Assembly: GCA_034687125.1 (NCBI GenBank)
Contig: JAQGBZ010000182.1
Span: forward strand, 59,372 to 123,371
Length of the DNA stretch: 64,000 nt
Source: Neelides folsomi
Taxonomy: Eukaryota > Arthropoda > Collembola > Neelipleona > Neelidae
Direction of reading: 5' to 3'
The first letter of the stretch is position 1. Each line of letters opens with the position of its first letter. Positions 20,501-64,000 of the stretch are shown here, piece after piece. Made by a program: the position numbers and the translations under genes. The notes beneath the pieces were generated by a model. The model saw only the letters and a program-made list of their open reading frames with translations. It was not told where the DNA came from and made no database searches.

Positions 20501-21899
20501 ATGATACCTAATAATAAGAGTATTACTCTGAGTTGCAGGTATTGTGGATGTGCTCATTTTAGTATGTTTTATGCGTCTCTACATGATTGTGAGCAATTAA
20601 TTTGCTTTTATAAATCCCCAGTTTCCAGTTTTTCAATAATCTCCCTCCAATCTAGATCCATCTCGCCCATATTAACTCGGTTAATGATAGAGGAACTTTT
20701 CAGACATTATCTCACCCTTTTTATTTCTCAAATGTTTCCTAACCTGCTATACATGCCTTCATCATACAAATACATACATTGATGAAGGGAAGTCCCATTT
20801 AGCATTCTCATCTTACTCATCCTCCACTCATCTTTCTTTCCAAATGGGGTAATAAGAGGTCCATTAGTAGAGGCATAATTAGTCAGAGTTTTGATGGGGG
20901 TCATTTAATTTATTAAGCCACTCGACTCCGTTGAGCTTCCAGAGTATCAAATTGTAATCGCATCTCCGGCAAGGCTGAAAGATCTATTTTTCATCATTGT
21001 GCAATGATATGATATTGTAATTGTTATTGTGTTGTCATCTCTTGAAGAGCGATAAGAGAATTAATCATCTTGTTCATGTAATCATCATTTTTGTGCTTTC
21101 CCATCATCCGCCACCTTCTGCCCCTTGGATCTCATTTACCCTTGAACATTTTTTGGAATATATCTCCCTATAAAACCCAATGTTCCCAGCTTATTAAATA
21201 TCAGAAGTATTGGATGTAAGCTGAAGTCCAGAGATTGGCGACCCTTTGTTCACATGAGCATGGGATCTGGCGATGAGAGCAAACGTTTGCTATCTCCCGT
21301 CAGAGCTCGATGATTTAAACACATCATTTATTATTTATCCATGATGCATGTAAATAGCTTTTCGGCAAATGAAACATGAGGAGTTGGATGATGATTGTCA
21401 ACATCAACTCTTTAAGCCTCTTGAGAGATACGATGGAATAAGCTTTCCCTTAAATTCCTTATCAAAATTCACAATTTATCTCTTCCACCTGACCTTTTGG
21501 GTGTTTCTTCGTCCTCATCATATTCACTGCTGGCCACCTCGGATGATGATAAAAGATTGACAACGAGAAAGAGCAACCAATGTCTGGATAAGAACAAGTG
21601 TGTACCATATATTACTCTCTCCATACTTTAGATAAAATTCTCATCATCTCTAAAAATATATTCATGAGCATTAAAATGAATATTGATGTGCAAGTTCAGC
21701 ATTATTCAAGTTTCTACGCATTGTGATTTGCTCTTTGCTCCTCAAACTCATCATATAATAATTATTATTTGAAGCGAAAAGAGATTCAAAAAATTTCAAT
21801 TGTCCAAATATCTGATAAGTTGACTGTTATTTGAAATTTGCAAGTTAAAAAACCTAAACTTGCCTGATAATTAACTTTGAGCATTCCTGCTGTTCTGTA

Positions 21900-30343: not shown

Positions 30344-33300
30344 ATGGACGTAAAATTTGAGCCGGTGGCCCATGTGAAGCACACCAATGGAGGAGATTCC
30401 GAAATTCGAAATGGATATTCTACAGAAAATATAGAAAAAAAATCCTCATCTTCCTCTGACAAGCACAAGAGTAAGCACAAGGACAAACATAAGGACAAGC
30501 ATAAGGACAAACATAGAGACCGGGACCATGATCGAGATAGGGAAAAGAAGCATAAACATCATAAGCACCATAAGGAGAAATCGAGGGATAAGGATCGAGA
30601 TCGAGAGAAGGAAAAACGCAAAGAAAAAGAAGTTGAGGTAACGATAACAAATCGAAGTTTATTCAATTTTCTGCAAAAAAATCTTAAAATTTTTATTAGG
30701 TTTAATTAAAATGTATTAATTATAGTTAAAATTTAAAATTTTTAAGGTTAAGAAGGAATCAGCATCACAGTCCTCGATATCGGAATCGGAATCGCCTCAG
30801 CGACCTCAGATAAAATACGAGGCTCCATCTTCTCCTTTTGAAGACGTCAAACCCGAAATAAAGCCAGTAGTTAAAATGGAAATTAAGGAAGAATCGGATC
30901 CTGATGATGACCTACCGCTGGTAAGGCTGATAATAATAACATGAGACCAATTCAATTTATAGATGTTAATTAAATATTTAATTGAATTCTGTTTAAAGTG
31001 ACGTGAGTTGTGTAGTTAAAATTTTGAATTTTAATGAGCTTGCTTTACTATAATATAGGATGTAATTACGAAGACTAAGGACGATAGCTTTAGTTCAAGT
31101 TCTTTAGATCGCTCTATAGACAATTTAGACATAAAAGCCAAAGGAGACTTAAGTACCGATGAAGCATACGAGTCTAACGAACTCAAGGATAATGACCTCG
31201 TAATTTGATACATTATGCATTTCTTTGTGTTGTTATTCGTCCTGTTCAATTGTTAAACTAATCTTATAATTTAACAACTTAAATACTAACTCACTCCTAG
31301 ATATATGTAATTGGATCACTTATAAATTACTAACGCGTTTAACATATGCTAATGTGTAGATTGAATACGTGTCCGCTTGTTTATACAGGCTGAGTCGCCA
31401 TATTTTACACGACCTAAATATCAGACCGCCCATGAGCTGAATTCCCGCCTAGATTTATTAAAGCGCCTTGGAATTCAATTCTGTCATTCTTTGCTTTAAT
31501 TATTATCATAATATTAAATTAATTCCTAATGGGAAAGAAATTAAATCAAAAAGTTGACGGCATGGTCAGAGCTCTTCTCGCTGGAAAATTAATCTATCAA
31601 TTTATCCTTTAAAATTGTGTTATTGGGACTCTAGGCATCGAAATCGACAGTGAGGAATATTGCCAAGATTGTCGAGAAAAGAAGGCAAGCAAGACCAATG
31701 ACCTACCAACCATACAAATCCCCCCAAAAGTGGACAAAACATTAAAAAGAATTCAACAATTTTTATCAATACACCCATTTACCCCTCATCTTACCCCATG
31801 TCCTCATTTTGATATGTCGTTAATTTAACTTTTCTTTTAATTAGCATTATTTTAAATTTTTCTCTTAAACACGGCATGCTGTCCTTTGACTTAAATTTAA
31901 CCTTCTAGCCATTTCACGTTGACTTGGAGGATTTTCGGAAGAAGAGAAAAGTTGAATAACTTGGTAGGATAACTTTTCTGCGAGAAGAGCTCTGACCATG
32001 CAGTCAACTTCTTGATTTAATTTCTTTCCCATTTGGAATTAATTTAATATTATGATAATTATTAAAGCAAAGAATGACAAAGAATTGAATTCTAAGGCGG
32101 TTTAATAAATATAGGCGGGAATTCAGCTCATGGGTGGCCTGATATTTGGGTCGTGTAAAATAAGGCGATTCAGCCCCTGTACTATACGTTATTTCAAATT
32201 AATAAAATGTGAATATTTTAGATGGCAAGAGTAAAAGCTAAAGTTGAGCTAAAACGAAAAGTTGAACCATCTGACGACGAAGACGACATTCCATTGAGTC
32301 GGCGAAAGAAAGTGAAGACCGAAAAGTCGAAATCTAAACCAAAGAAAAGAGCGCGTTCTGATTCTGAGGAGGAGGAAAAGTACGACAAGAAGAAGCCGGT
32401 GAAGAAGAGCAATTCTTCTCAACGTTCTTCATCCTCATCTCAAAATTCTTCGCCTACCAAGAAAAAGAAAAAGGAGGAAGAAGAAGAAGTGTGTTATTTA
32501 TTTATCTTACTGTTTTCCTACTTATAGGTTTACATTTAAATTTAGCTTATAAGCTAATTAAATTTTATCTAGATTTGGAAATGGTGGGAAGAAGCACCTC
32601 GTGATGACGGTGTAAAATGGAATTTTCTCGAGCACAAAGGTCCCGTATTCGCCCCTGAATATGAACGTCTTCCTTCAAACATCAAGTTTCGGTATAATGG
32701 AAAATCTATGCCCCTTTCGGAAGAAGCTGAAGAAGTTGCCGGTTTTTACTCCCGTTTTATCGAGCATGACTACGTGACGAAAGAAAAATTCAACACAAAT
32801 TTTTTCAAAGTAAAATTTCTTGGCCTTTACAAAGAAAAAATAGAATATTTTGATTATAATGGTTTTAATACTATTCTTACTGGTGATGACTAAAATTATA
32901 CGCTATCATGATATAAAATGATATCTAACTTGCCCTCTCTGACAAATAAATTAATTTTACTCTAACCCAATAGTTTCAATTTAGATTAATTTATTTTATT
33001 AGGATTGGCGTAAGACAATGACGAAGGCCGAACGGGAAACAATAACCGACCTCAAAAAATGCGACTTTAGAGAAATCAATGACTATTACAAACAAAAGTC
33101 AGAAGAAAGGAAGGCAATGAGCAAGGAAGAAAAGAAAGGCTTGAAGGAAGAGAATGAAAAGATTCAAAATCTTTATGGCATTTGTATTCTCGACGGACAC
33201 AAAGAAAAGATTGGCAACTTTAGAATTGAACCTCCAGGTTTTTAAATAACATTGATTGAATAGAAGTTCATTTTCCTTTGTGATGACTAAAATTATACGC

Positions 33301-35177
33301 TATTATGATATATAATGATATCTAACTTGCCCTCTCTGATAAATATATTTCAAATTATTGTTTCAAAAATTATTGCCATTTTTGAATTAAAAATTTTATT
33401 CTCATTTTAGGTTTGTTTCGTGGTCGGGGTGATCACCCTAAAATGGGGATGTTAAAGAAACGAGTTAATCCCGAAGACGTCATCATCAATTGTAGCAAAG
33501 ATGCTGAAGTTCCAAAAGCTCCATTTGGTAAAAAATGGAAGCAAGTTCGTCACGACAATGCCGTCTCATGGTTGGCATGTTGGGTCGAGAACGTTCAGGT
33601 ATTTATCTTTTAGAATTAAATTTTTAAGAATTAAATCATCAAGTATGATGACCAAAATTATACGCTATTATGATATAAAATGATATCTAACTTGCCCTCT
33701 CTGACAGATTATTAATTATCATAATTATTCGAGTTATTAGATAAGATCTAATAAACTTTCAATTCTAGGGACAAACCAAGTATGTCATGCTGAATCCAAC
33801 ATCAAGGCTAAAGGGAGAAAAGGATTGGCTTAAGTATGAAAAAGCCCGGGAGTTGTCAAAGCATATTGAGAAAATTCGAGAGAAATATAAAAGGGATTTC
33901 AAATCTAAGGAAATGCGTGTCCGACAACGAGCTGTTGCTCTTTATTTTATTGACAAATTAGCGCTGAGAGCAGGAAATGAAAAGGATGAAGATCAGGCTG
34001 ACACTGTCGGTTGCTGCTCCCTTCGCTATGAACACATTCAACTCTTTGATGAAAAGGATGGGCAAGAATGTGTTGTAACATTTGATTTCCTTGGAAAGGA
34101 TTCAATTAGATATGTGAACGAGGTCCCTGTTGAGAAACGAGTGTATAAAAATCTGAAAATCTTCCTTGATCATAAAAAAGATGGAGATGATCTTTTCGAC
34201 AGACTAAACGTAAGACTTTTACACACTATAAGATAATATTTACATAAGTATCAATATGTTATTAAAACATTTTTATTCATTAATGGAATTTAACGATTTT
34301 GATTATTATTTTAGACTGCAATTCTTAATAAGCATCTAAGCGAATTGATGCCTGGACTTACAGCGAAAGTATTTCGTACGTACAATGCCAGCCACACGCT
34401 CCAACAACAACTCGACGAGTTGATGGAGAAAGATATGACGGTAGCAGAAAAGGTTTTGGCCTACAACAGAGCTAATAGAGCTGTGGCAATTCTTTGCAAC
34501 CATCAACGTGCAGTCCCTAAATCCCACGATAAATCAATGGAAAACTTGGCGACAAAAATTAAAACCAAGAAAGATGATCTTAAGCAAGCCAAAAAGGAGT
34601 TAAAAAATATGGGCAAGAATTCCAAGTAGGTTTATTTTAGACTTAAATATTAATTGGAATTTTCAACAAATGTTGAAATAAAACAATTTTTTACTATTCA
34701 TGATGAGCAAAATTATACGCTATTATGATACAAAATGATATCTAACTTGCCCTCTCTGAAACTTAATTTATCCATCTATGATTAGATTATAGTGATATAA
34801 ATATGTATTTGCTTATGTGTTTTTTTAATTTACAGAGATCACGAGAAAAAGGCAAATCAAGTTGCTCGGCTTAAGGAACAGCTTGCAAAATTAGAAATGA
34901 ACAAAACAGATAAGGAAGAAGGAAAGGAAATTGCATTAGGAACATCTAAACTTAATTATCTCGATCCTCGAATTACAGTTGCATGGTAAGACATATTGAA
35001 TTTGCCTTAATATTTTTAATAAAACATTGAAATTCGCAAGAGCTAAAAATGTATAATTTGAATGTTTACAGGTGTAAAAAATACGATGTTCCATTAGAAA
35101 AAGCTTATAATAAGACCCAAAGAGCAAAATTCCGATGGGCTATTGATATGGCGGATAAACATTTTAGATTCGATTAA
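30344..35177 (+). CDS. TOP1: DNA topoisomerase I (type IB)
   Basis: Nuclear type IB topoisomerase that nicks one DNA strand through a 3'-phosphotyrosine link and relaxes supercoils ahead of polymerases. Exons: 30344-30637, 30747-30920, (31059-31199, possibly optional), 32222-32488, 32573-32809, 33003-33237, 33411-33598, 33769-34209, 34315-34625, 34836-34985, 35072-35177. This gives 800 residues, or 847 with the optional exon; the human enzyme has 765. A charged Lys/His/Asp/Glu N-terminal region precedes the core, which opens at [20 protein letters not shown]. The five catalytic residues are present: Arg in LALRAGN, Lys in FLGKDSIRY, Arg in [10 protein letters not shown], His in CNHQRA, and the nucleophile Tyr in SKLNYLDPR. 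Family identity is certain. The start could instead be an in-frame ATG at 30329, but a CAG acceptor lies between the two, so I chose ATG 30344. Four introns contain snoRNA-like elements and one holds a transposon. Confidence 0.95.
31059..31199 (+). CDS. TOP1: Candidate optional (cassette) exon of topoisomerase I
   Basis: This 141-nt open segment lies behind a good acceptor (TATAATATAG) and before a weak donor (CTC|GTAATT). It is phase 0 at both ends, so it can be included or skipped without changing the frame. It would add 47 acidic, Ser-rich residues (starting [15 protein letters not shown]) to the poorly conserved linker ahead of the core domain. The composition suits that linker, but there is no family conservation to confirm it. 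Confidence 0.45.
31386..32179. mobile_element. Non-autonomous DNA transposon with ~205-bp terminal inverted repeats, in a Top1 intron
   Basis: The left end (CAGGCTGAGTCGCC..., about 31386-31592) and the right end (about 31966-32179) are inverted copies with roughly nine in ten bases alike over about 205 bp, including a shared block ending in GGTCAGAGCTCTTCTCGC. The right end reads inward CAGGGGCTGAATCGCC. Both ends are flanked by TA, which would be the target duplication. The 370-bp centre has no transposase ORF. The TA target and CAGG start recall Tc1/mariner-type elements, but such long TIRs also occur in other groups, so I leave the superfamily open. It sits in sense-neutral intronic sequence and should not affect the protein. 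Confidence 0.8.
32883..32943 (+). ncRNA. Intronic box C/D snoRNA-like element, copy 1 of 4
   Basis: Box C (GTGATGA) is at 32883-32889 and box D (CTGA) at 32939-32942, giving 60 nt from box to box. The element lies inside the Top1 intron 32810-33002, with box D 60 nt before the 3' splice site, the spacing typical of intron-processed C/D snoRNAs. The stretch before box D, CTAACTTGCCCTCT, is identical in all four copies. Its TTGCCCTC core is complementary to the conserved 18S rRNA sequence GGAGGGCAAGT. A possible C' box (TGATAT) lies in the middle; a D' box is not clear. The copies share more than 90 percent of bases while their flanks have diverged, so the 60 nt are under selection or recently copied. 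Confidence 0.75.
33280..33340 (+). ncRNA. Intronic box C/D snoRNA-like element, copy 2 of 4
   Basis: Box C GTGATGA is at 33280-33286 and box D CTGA at 33336-33339. The span is again exactly 60 nt, in the Top1 intron 33238-33410, with box D 71 nt before the 3' splice site. The guide region is identical to copy 1. It differs from the other copies mainly in the A/T-rich middle (ATATAATG instead of ATAAAATG). Confidence 0.75.
33645..33705 (+). ncRNA. Intronic box C/D snoRNA-like element, copy 3 of 4
   Basis: Box C ATGATGA is at 33645-33651 and box D CTGA at 33701-33704, a 60-nt span in the Top1 intron 33599-33768. Box D lies 64 nt before the 3' splice site. It carries the same guide region and differs by one base just after box C (ACC for ACT). 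Confidence 0.75.
34700..34760 (+). ncRNA. Intronic box C/D snoRNA-like element, copy 4 of 4
   Basis: Box C ATGATGA is at 34700-34706 and box D CTGA at 34756-34759, a 60-nt span in the Top1 intron 34626-34835. Box D lies 76 nt before the 3' splice site. This is the most diverged copy (GAGC after box C, ATACAAA in the middle), yet boxes C and D and the pre-D guide are unchanged. Confidence 0.72.
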
Positions 35178-59224: not shown

Positions 59225-62200
59225 ATGTCTAGGATCACTAGACACTTGGCCCCATGGGCCTGCCTTCTTCTACTCAACTTCGCATACGCCTTTCATATTC
59301 CTTCTGTAAATCCAAAAATTCAATTTTCCATTTACAAAATTAGTTTTATTAAATTACTGATAATATTTTAAATTAATAAATCATCTTCAATAATATTTTT
59401 TTAATTTTTAGGTAAGCTTGCAGGAGAACGATGATCAATTCCCCTCGTTTACGAATTGGCCATCAAGTGGGAACAATGTATCGGAAGTTATCGCACTATA
59501 CGATTATTCAACCGTAAGGTTTTAATCTTTTTAATCTATACAATTTAGAAAAACAAACAGAATAAACAATTGCAGTTAGACTCATCTTGTCATTTCAAAA
59601 TTTGTTTAACTTTTTCTGGATTGCTAAACCAATTTTCATTACATTGGTGGGTGTGTAATATTATTAAATCATGAATTCACGAGTGTATTGGTAATGAAAA
59701 TTACATAATACTCTATCTGAAAGCAGATAGGAGTATAGTACTTATTCAGGAGGTGTTAGTTTAAAGGCCCAATTGTTGGACACTCGTCCATGTTAGTATT
59801 TGGTATCGCAATATAAATCAATACGGGTATTCTAGTGAGTGGTTTAAAACTTTTCTAAATTATATTACATCCAAAATGTTTAAATGATACACGGTAAGCA
59901 CATTTACAAATATTTTTAAAAAGACACGTTCTTAAAAAATTTTATTCAAACAATTCATAAAAGGCAAAAAGTAGAAGTAGAGAAAATGAAATGTATAAAA
60001 ATAAATAATATATTATAAATGCTCTTTGATTAAAACTGTAGCCTAACAAGTTATATAAAATAGGCTATTGAAGATAAAGATTGTTTTTGTAGTGGTATTT
60101 AAGAGATTAATAAATAAAAGCAGTATATAAAATACATATAAGAAAGGCTTAATTTAGTATTCATTACTGATCCTTCTCAATTAAATCCGTCTAGTCGATT
60201 CAAGCTTTAGAGTATTATGATAAGAAAGGTTAAAGTTGAATTTGAATATAGGGAATGATCATCTTCAAAGACGGAAGTATCCCAGCATGTTATATTGAAA
60301 GCCACGGAGGAGAGGATCGTCGGCCGAGTCGGAAGTTGAAAGTTCTTTCAGCTACATCGCTCATCAAGCTCACATCCGATGATGTTATTTCTCCATTCAC
60401 GAAAGAATTTTGCGGCGATCTTCCCATTTACAAAATGGAAGAATCAGTCCCTTCAAAGAGGACCAAGAGAAGCCCCAAAGACCGAAATTTCCAAGGCAAG
60501 TGCACACCTTTTACTGCCCTATTTATAGAACATCCCAAAACAAGTATTTATTGTCCAGTACAAAGTTAAAGTAATCTGATTTAATTGAGATAAGGCTTAT
60601 CAATTTGCTGTATAACAGGGAGCCAAACCCAAGTCCAAGGAATGGTTGCGGGTCAAGGATTCTTCTCGGGTCAAGCCCAATCAGTAAATGGTGGAATGAG
60701 CCAATCCCAAGTCCAACTCGGTGGACATGGGATTACAGGAACTCTCTCAAGGTAGTATCCGATAACCAAACGTTCAATACATTTTCCAATTGTTTGCGAA
60801 TAAACTGTTAACTGATTTGAATTGCAGCTCTGCTGGTAATGCTATGGCTCAACTGTCCTTGGGGTCGACTCAAGGTTCTGGACAAGCCTCGAGCTTTGGA
60901 TCTGGACCGTCTAACTCTCAAGTATAATTACAACATTGCATTTTGCTAAATATTTTCAATTGATCTTGAACAACCACCTTATTAAACGTTGTAATCAGGT
61001 TCAAGTCAATTTGGGGCAAGACGAACAAGGATCTTTGGCATCTGCTAACGTTTTCGCTGGAGGGGACGGAGATGGAAAAATTGGACATGGAGGTCGTGGA
61101 GCTGGAGGTGATGGCGCTTTCGGACCTGGAGGTGGACGAGGAGGTCCAGACGGTTCCGGACGTGGTGGGCGTGGCGGTGGACGAGGAGGATCTGGAGATG
61201 GAAATGGAGGATTTGGAGCCTCACCTGCTGGTGGCGGTTTAGGAAGAGGAATGGGCCCTGATGGCTTTGGCCCGGGTGGCCGGGGAGACGGATCTGGTGG
61301 ATTTGGACCTGGTGGAAGAGGAGGAGCAAATGGTGATGGCTCTGGTGCTGATGGATTTGGATCAGGAGGAGCTGGAGGATATGGACCTGGAGGAAGAGGA
61401 GATGGTTCTGGTGCTGACGGTTTCGGACCAGGAGGTCGAGGAGGAGCAAACGGCGATGGTTCTGGTGGATTTGGACCAGGAGGTCGAGGAGGAGCCAATG
61501 GTGATGGGTCAGGAGGATTCGGACCTGGGGGTCGTGGAGGAGCTAACGGAGCTGGAGGCTACGGACCTGGTGGAAGAGGAGATGGATCAGATGGGGATGG
61601 TTCAGGAACTGATGGACTTGGACCAGGAGGACGTGGTGCTGGAGGTTACGGACCAGGAGGAAGAGGAGGTTTGTTTAAAACATAGATTTTGTCAATTCAT
61701 ATTCACATTCCTGAAAAAAACACTTTTCACATTTTAGATGGATCAAATGGAGATGGAATAGGAGGACGAGGTGGCGGTCGTGGTGGAACAAATGGAGATG
61801 GTTCAGGACCAGGAGGTCGAGGAGGCGGTCGTGGTGGTGCCGGTGATAGAGATGGGCCAGGTGGAAGAGGATATGGGCCTGGAGGATCTGATGCTGATGG
61901 AAATGGGCTTGGCGCTGGTGGCTATGGACCTGGAGGACGCGGAGGTTTAGGAGATGGAAATGATGGTGGAGGACCCGGAGGACGTAGAGGTGGAGGTCCA
62001 GGAGATGATGACGATGATGGCATGGGAGCAGGAGCTGGGGGTTACGGTCCTGCAAGAGGAGCAGGAGGAAATGGAGCTGGTGCTGCTTCAGGAGGAGGTG
62101 CAAACGGAGCTGGAGGGCCAAATGGTAGTGGTCGTGGAGCAGGTGGATACGGCCCAGGTGGAAGTGGTGGACCAGACGCTGAAGGCTATGGACCAGGAGG

Positions 62201-64000
62201 AAGAGGATCAGGACCTGGAGGAAGAGGGGGACCAAATGACGGAAATGGTGGAAGAGGCAGTGGACCAGGAGGATATGGACCTGGACGCGGTGGCGCTAAT
62301 GGAGATGGAAATGGAGGAAGAGGCAGCGGGCCAGGAGGATATGGACCAGGTGGAAATGGATTAGGAGATGGAAATGGTGGACGAGGAAGCGGTCCCGGTG
62401 GATCAGGTCTTGGTGACGGAAATGGTGGATCAGGTCCTGGCGATGGAAACGGTGGACGTGGTTATGGTCCTGCTGGTGGAGCAAATGGAGCAGGAGCAGC
62501 TTCTGGAGGTGGGGCAAATGGAGGAGCTGGTCGCGGACCTGGTGGATATGGCCCAGGAGGACGTGGAGGACCAGATGGAAATGGCTATGGACCTGGAGGA
62601 AGAGGAAGTGGGCCTGGTGGAATTGGAGGACCCAATGACGGAAATGGCGGAAGAGGCAGTGGACCAGGAGGATATGGACCCGGAGGAACAGGATTAGATG
62701 ATGGAATCGATGGAAGAGGAAGTGGACCAGGTGGATCAGGACCAGGAAACGGTGGACGCGGTTATGGTCCAGCTGGAGGAGCTAATGGAGCTGGGGCTGC
62801 TTCGGGTGATGGATCAAATGGAGCCGGACGTGGACCAGGCGGTTATGGACCCGGTGGACGAGGTGGTGCAGATGATGATGGTCATGGTTCTGGAGGGAGA
62901 GGATCGGGACCTGGTGGCCGTGGAGGTCCAAATGACGGAAGAGGAAGCGGACCTGGTGGTTCCGGATTAGATGATGGTACTGGTGGAAGAGGAAGTGGAC
63001 CTGGAGGCTATGGTCCTGGATCTGGACGTGGTAATGACAATGGTGGACGTGGAACAATTGGATATGGTCCATCTGGTGGAAGAGGAGGGCCTAATGATGG
63101 AAATGGCGGACATGCAGCTGGTTCCGGAGGAGTGAATGGAGCCGGTGGACGTGGACCTGGATCAGGTGGCTATGGACCTGCAGGATCGGGAGCTAACGGA
63201 TTTGGACCTGGAGGGCGCGGATCTGGTGATCAAAATGGTCGAGGTGCAGGAGGCTATGGACCCGCAGGACGTGGAACTGGAGACGACGATGACGATTCGG
63301 ATGGCATGGGACCAGGCGGAAGAGGCTCTGGCCCTGGAGGCCGTGGTGGACCTGGAGACGGAAATGGTGGACGAGGAAGCGGGCCAGGAGGCTATGGACC
63401 CGGATCAGGTCCAGGAGGTTCAGGACTTGGTGATGGCAATGGTGGAAGAGGAAGTGGACCAGGAGGTTCTGGACTTGGAGATGGCAATGGTGGAAGAGGA
63501 AGCGGACCCGGTGGTTATGGACCTGGATCAGGACCAGGAGGTTCTGGACTTGGAGATGGCAATGGTGGAAGAGGAAGCGGACCCGGTGGTTATGGACCTG
63601 GATCAGGACCAGGAGGTTCTGGACTTGGAGATGGCAATGGTGGAAGAGGAAGTGGACCAGGTGGTTATGGTCCTGGAGGTTCAGGTCCTGGAGATGGCAA
63701 TGGTGGAAGAGGAAGTGGACCAGGAGGTTATGGACCCGGATCAGGACCAGGAGGTTCAGGTCTTGGAGATGGAAATGGTGGACGCGGATATGGCCCTGCA
63801 GGAGGATCAAATGGAGCGGGCGCAGCGTCTGCAGGTGGAGCTAATGGTGGTTATGGACCTGGCGGTCGTGGCGGTTCTGATGATGATGCCTACGGACCTG
63901 GAGGAAGAGGATCAGGACCAGGTGGAAGAGGAGGGCCAAATGACGGGAATGGTGGAAGAGGAAGTGGACCAGGTGGATATGGACCGGGTGGTTCAGGCTT
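59225..64000 (+). CDS. Secreted glycine-rich silk-like protein, continues beyond the window
   Basis: Exons: 59225-59305, 59412-59513, 60252-60495, 60619-60751, 60828-60921, 60999-61668 and 61738 to the window end; about 1195 residues visible, no stop. A signal peptide (LAPWACLLLLNFAYA) precedes a unique region of about 110 residues with two Cys. A basic cleavage motif (KRTKRS) follows, then a Gln/Ser section with SQTQVQ, SQSQVQ and NSQVQ at exon joints. From about residue 238 on it is almost pure Gly-rich repeat: GPGGYGPGGRG, NGGRGSGPGGYGPG, GANGAGAASGG, with short Asp runs. GPGGX repeats resemble elastic spider silks and other arthropod fibre or adhesive proteins by convergence; I know no firm orthologue. 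One intron is GC-AG (CAAG|GCAAGT at 60495/60496). If the host is a sea louse, a frontal-filament or cement role would be attractive, but that is inference. Confidence 0.8.
59514..60251 (+). other. AT-rich second intron of the glycine-rich gene
   Basis: 738-nt AT-rich intron, donor ACC|GTAAGG and acceptor ATATAG. Nothing recognisable inside. Confidence 0.55.
63432..63780 (+). repeat. 75-bp tandem coding repeats in the glycine-rich gene
   Basis: Starts of ATGGCAATGG-type units fall at 63432, 63481, 63556, 63631, 63694 and 63769. Neighbouring full units are 75 bp (25 residues), and shorter ones of 48 and 63 bp lack one sub-block. Two consecutive units are nearly identical at the nucleotide level, including synonymous sites, showing recent duplication or gene conversion. 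Each unit encodes GDGNGGRGSGPGGYGPG followed by SGPGGSGL. Weaker versions of the same pattern fill the rest of the exon from 61738. Confidence 0.85.

Follow-up and report, generated by a model that had tools for sequence, protein, structure and literature searches.

Four introns of a Top1 gene carry copies of a candidate two-guide box C/D snoRNA

Why would four introns of a single topoisomerase I gene each carry nearly the same 60 nt, and what would an RNA made from them do? The gene, Top1, lies on the + strand at 32222–35177 of the 64,000-nt stretch of DNA analyzed here (the window), and the initial annotation had described the four elements as resembling box C/D small nucleolar RNAs (snoRNAs). 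Our best explanation, drawn from sequence comparison, is that they are four intronic copies of a two-guide box C/D snoRNA, a candidate for methylation of 18S rRNA at the equivalents of human G601 and G644. We give this reading a probability of roughly 0.93.

Four copies of one element in Top1 introns

The Top1 coding gene was delineated with a splice model and by the match of its protein to topoisomerase I chains in the PDB (best E 3.2e-255). It comprises eight exons (32222–32488, 32573–32809, 33003–33237, 33411–33598, 33769–34209, 34315–34625, 34836–34985, and 35072–35177, all on the + strand), which splice into a coding sequence of 644 amino acids with exclusively GT-AG introns. The elements occupy introns 2, 3, 4, and 6, one per intron, that is, four of the seven coding-region introns. 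In the splice model these introns measure 193, 173, 170, and 210 nt, and the element-free introns 1, 5, and 7 (84, 105, and 86 nt) are about half as long.

Every copy runs for exactly 60 nt, from RTGATGA (box C) through CTGA (box D), on the + strand. Copy e1, in intron 2 (32883–32942), has box C at 32883–32889, a first guide (the D' guide) at 32897–32907, box D' (ATGA) at 32908–32911, box C' (ATGATAT) at 32918–32924, a second guide (the D guide) at 32928–32938, and box D at 32939–32942. The same parts follow in the same order in copy e2 of intron 3 (33280–33339; box C 33280–33286, D' guide 33294–33304, D' 33305–33308, C' 33315–33321, D guide 33325–33335, D 33336–33339), in copy e3 of intron 4 (33645–33704; box C 33645–33651, D' guide 33659–33669, D' 33670–33673, C' 33680–33686, D guide 33690–33700, D 33701–33704), and in copy e4 of intron 6 (34700–34759; box C 34700–34706, D' guide 34714–34724, D' 34725–34728, C' 34735–34741, D guide 34745–34755, D 34756–34759). 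Numbered within the element, box C corresponds to positions 1–7, the D' guide to 15–25, D' to 26–29, C' to 36–42, the D guide to 46–56, and D to 57–60, the boundaries of D', C', and the guides having been read by eye from an alignment of the four copies.

The copies are 92%–97% identical to one another. There are two differences per 60 nt between e1 and e2 and between e3 and e4, three between e3 and either e1 or e2, and five between e4 and either e1 or e2, which confirms the annotated near-identity of more than 90%. The closest pairs, e1-e2 and e3-e4, are neighbors, and this fits a stepwise duplication inside Top1. Beyond the element, the best match between any two of the four host introns is 17 nt long (E 0.014), so that the surrounding introns have little sequence in common, in line with the initial annotation. 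Searched with a sequence model made from the copies, the window yields these four at E ≤ 4.3e-24, and the next best of the eight matches listed has an E of 0.086 (26 of 70 positions); the annotated absence of the element from every other intron of the window is thus borne out. A DNA search of the whole 75-Mb assembly returned at least four matches, all of them the Top1 copies, and an exact 57-base pattern of the element had no match in IMG/VR. On a mitochondrial contig (C742), inspection by eye indicates that the protein genes follow the ancestral arthropod order.

Two other features of the window were observed. A large inverted repeat at 31388–32175 ends 46 nt upstream of the Top1 start codon; its arms of 95 and 124 nt are 92% and 91% complementary, respectively, with 350 nt between the inner arms, and it resembles a foldback or MITE-type element. 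At 61686–63998, an open frame of at least 771 amino acids runs off the end of the window. It contains GPGGY, GPGGRG, and GLGDGNGG repeats and GAGAAS stretches, and resembles silk or other glycine-rich structural proteins.

Box anatomy and position within the introns

Box C and box D are both present in all four copies. A C'/D' pair, its two boxes 6 nt apart, lies between the two guides in each of them, with ATGA as D' and a degenerate C' that matches the consensus at five of seven positions. The D guide, D, D', and C' are invariant across the copies. Variation is confined to positions 1 (A or G, either of which fits box C), 8, 9, 25, 32, and 34, and four of these six positions fall within the 16 positions of the spacers (hypergeometric P = 0.038, calculated on our own division of the element into parts). 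In e1, a T-to-C change loses the first pair of the D' guide.

This pattern bears on whether all four copies work. A functional snoRNA of which only some copies are active, the others being decaying duplicates kept alike by recent duplication or gene conversion, overlaps with our main reading and would agree both with the small number of differences (two to five per 60 nt) and with the C at the first D' guide position of e1. The abundance of snoRNAs from one host often differs, according to the portions of two reports cited here (PMC8178906, PMC10234308). However, boxes C, D, D', and C' and the full D guide are retained in 4/4 copies, and the diverged flanks indicate that the duplication is not recent, unless the copying was exact. 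We regard decay of some of the copies as possible but doubtful.

The terminal and external stems of the copies are no better than those formed by shuffled flanks (p = 0.42–0.96 in 4/4 copies). Some box C/D members, reportedly described by Darzacq and Kiss in 2000, lack a terminal stem, and for this reason we do not treat the stem as obligatory. Among human box C/D snoRNAs, terminal stems are more stable in the expressed members than in the non-expressed ones, as stated in the cited part of one study (PMC10234308). Box D lies 60, 71, 64, and 76 nt upstream of the 3' splice sites of introns 2, 3, 4, and 6 in the splice model, the same distances as those annotated initially. The same study, again in the part cited, places the positional optimum for snoRNAs 40–50 nt from the branchpoint (PMC10234308); the observed spacing fits this optimum if the branchpoint is assumed to lie ∼20–30 nt before the splice site. 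Given the weak terminal stems of all four copies, the spacing to the splice site may matter.

The presence of a single copy in each of four introns, out of seven in the coding region, could also reflect a cis effect on how Top1 is spliced or expressed, instead of or besides the guiding of rRNA, and cis functions of intronic snoRNAs are covered in a review (PMC11028025, consulted in excerpt). In contrast, three Top1 introns have no element at all, and the conserved parts of the element include both rRNA guides together with all of the boxes. A role in cis is, in our judgment, very unlikely.

Guide identity and predicted 18S targets

The covariance-model comparison suggested in the initial annotation was run against Rfam. 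It yielded sub-threshold matches to the element, and no Rfam family reached its cut-off. The best of these matches is SNORD81 (RF00136; 29.7 bits, E 0.0075, with a cut-off of 50), which has AACUUG..CUCUC in common with the element. In the best alignment, box C of the SNORD81 model falls on the C' region of the element and its CUGA on a CAGA downstream of the element's box D. We rejected SNORD81 as the identity of the element because the boxes are misaligned in this way and the guide differs at two bases.

Two lower-scoring families align differently. SNORD103 (RF00188) gives 16.7 bits against a cut-off of 45, and snoU54 (RF01277) gives 17.1 bits against a cut-off of 35; in both alignments the guide matches in register, the SNORD103 consensus CACUUGCCCUCACUgA being aligned to AACUUGCCCUCUCUGA of the element and the snoU54 consensus UUAUACGCUAUUCUGA to UUAUACGCUAUUAUGA. 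The D guide, ACTTGCCCTC-T-CTGA, matches the SNORD103 guide in the same register to the box, and the D' guide, TTATACGCTATT-ATGA, matches the SNORD54/U54 guide, placed directly before a D-type box. These weaker alignments appear to us more telling than that of SNORD81. When the SNORD103 and snoU54 models were run over the whole genome, they gave two and six matches, respectively, none over the cut-off and none of them a Top1 copy; such searches say little, since they also produce sub-cut-off matches in 13/14 and 14/14 prokaryote controls.

We also searched the assembly for separate U54 and U103 genes, using exact patterns of the two guides. The D guide pattern has one extra match (L018), and its reversed control has one. 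The D' guide pattern has five extra matches and its control none, with ∼6 expected by chance at this base composition (hand estimate). In none of the six extra exact matches does RTGATGA occur 40–70 nt upstream. The best match of the snoU54 model in the genome, at C749:7700–7757 (L031/L032), is weak (22.3 bits, E 1.25). Inside it, at L031, the D' guide stands before a TTGA as box D, and an RTGATGA lies 89 nt upstream. Apart from this weak match, nothing in the search with exact guide patterns points to a separate U54-like gene.

Neither a DNA probe nor an 18S pattern allowing up to two mismatches matched rDNA in the assembly, and a 5.8S family search gave two matches, none over the cut-off. 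As its own 18S was not found, the guides were tested on 18S from other eukaryotes. The reference was eukaryotic rDNA on six contigs (L009–L014) from GTDB records titled as bacteria, of which three 18S sequences were scored, L013 and L010 being whole and L011 partial, with L009, L012, and L014 left out. Eukaryotic rRNA genes on records so titled suggest contamination; the rRNA matches of L010 include group I introns.

For copy e3, the two best ungapped 18S duplexes are formed by the two guides on all three references (L013, L010, and partial L011). They pair ACTTGCCCTCT with GGAGGGCAAGT and TATACGCTATT with AATAGCGTATA, and both guides abut D-type boxes. The best 28S duplexes of e3, scored on L010 only, fall below these two. 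With 18S from other eukaryotes as the target, the guide at D forms 11 pairs, one of them G-U, in all four copies (duplex score 26.5 in each), and the guide at D' forms 11 pairs in three copies (score 25) and 10 in e1 (score 23). When the base order of the e3 guides, and only the order, was shuffled, the e3 scores against 18S, 28S, and 5.8S were reached in 7/600 trials for D and 4/600 for D'. A second control gave scores matching that of the D guide at 4/204 other CTGA sites on the + strand of the window, so that the evidence from a single guide would be weak. We consider two guides together, at known methylation sites, to be strong evidence.

The base methylated by a box C/D snoRNA is the fifth from the D-type box. 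This rule places the two predicted Gm sites at G552 and G595 in the 18S of L013, 43 nt apart. SNORD103 is listed for 18S G601 (PMC8881200) and SNORD54, hosted by RPS20, for 18S G644 (PMC3766210), and the chicken U103 and U54 homologs are assigned to G562 and G605 (PMC2653536); in the entries cited from these sources, the human and the chicken pairs are likewise 43 nt apart. The cited part of a Drosophila study puts the human 18S region 644–867 among human-unique Nm regions (PMC13228274), and Gm644 may accordingly not be general in animals. The text cited from this preprint also reports internal 2'-O-methylation signals on Top1 mRNA in fly and human (PMC13228274).

The guides help to decide between a snoRNA and a dispersed repeat or mobile element fragment with C- and D-like boxes that arose by chance. 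A repeat would explain why the four copies are so alike and end sharply, but those found in 75 Mb, at least four, are all in one gene and carry two 18S guides in register; we think a dispersed repeat extremely improbable. The elements instead fit a box C/D snoRNA, a classification supported at the sequence level. The reading put forward in the initial annotation, which named no rRNA targets, is thereby strengthened, by boxes C and D, the C'/D' pair, the position within introns, and the two in-register 18S guides. At 21388–21492 of the window there is an RTGATGA...CTGA pair with a spacing of 105 nt; 11 nt there could pair with the 18S of L013 around position 197, which may be chance.

A working model and its relation to known snoRNAs

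These results suggest a model in which the spliced Top1 intron lariat would be debranched and trimmed to an RNP of ∼60–70 nt with fibrillarin. The D guide would pair with GGAGGGCAAGT of 18S and is predicted to methylate the G that corresponds to human G601; the D' guide would pair with AATAGCGTATA and is predicted to methylate the G equivalent to human G644. The element thus most likely does the job of two separate vertebrate guide RNAs. We infer that the Top1 copies are expressed and direct methylation, and co-expression of Top1 with an rRNA-related snoRNA would make sense. The copies probably arose by duplication within the host, the boxes and guides being kept and the surrounding introns diverging.

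The order of the guides (G644 at D', G601 at D) is collinear with 18S read antiparallel, and both guides could therefore pair at once. The two predicted sites flank what we take to be helix 18 (the 530 loop, at the decoding center). On this basis, a single RNP might act as a clamp that holds both flanks of helix 18, methylates both, and chaperones the 32 nt between them, with the Top1 copies tying its supply to rDNA transcription. We offer this extension tentatively, as an improbable one.

Duplication of box C/D snoRNAs across the introns of one host is common, according to the cited part of one report (PMC8178906). The chicken SNORD103 homolog, GGgCD15, is, like the Top1 copies, spread over several introns, with three copies in introns 9, 12, and 21 of PUM1 (PMC2653536). 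The arrangement of the guides is different, however. The SNORD103 guide is at D' in chicken (11 nt, 5') and after box C in the Rfam model, whereas it is at D in the Top1 element; the U54 guide is at D in chicken (11 nt, 3'), on a single copy in RPS20, whereas it is at D' in the Top1 element (PMC2653536). The hosts differ correspondingly, with two separate snoRNAs in PUM1 and RPS20 of chicken and one double guide in Top1. A similar relation, at other sites and with other sequences, exists between chicken GGgCD18 and human U36A/U36C, where one predicted two-guide snoRNA is split over two elsewhere (PMC2653536; as for the other chicken comparisons, from the part cited).

Our literature search turned up no account of Top1 introns that host a snoRNA, and none of a U54+U103 double guide. 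Both double guides and duplication inside one host have precedents; the pairing of these guides, their swapped order, and the Top1 host are unusual and, as far as our searches show, new. The comparison suggests a lineage in which the two 18S guides that chicken carries on snoRNAs of RPS20 and PUM1 are found on one 60-nt double guide in four Top1 introns, and it would make this locus a clean case for the merging of guide functions, the swapping of hosts, and possibly a two-site folding clamp on 18S.
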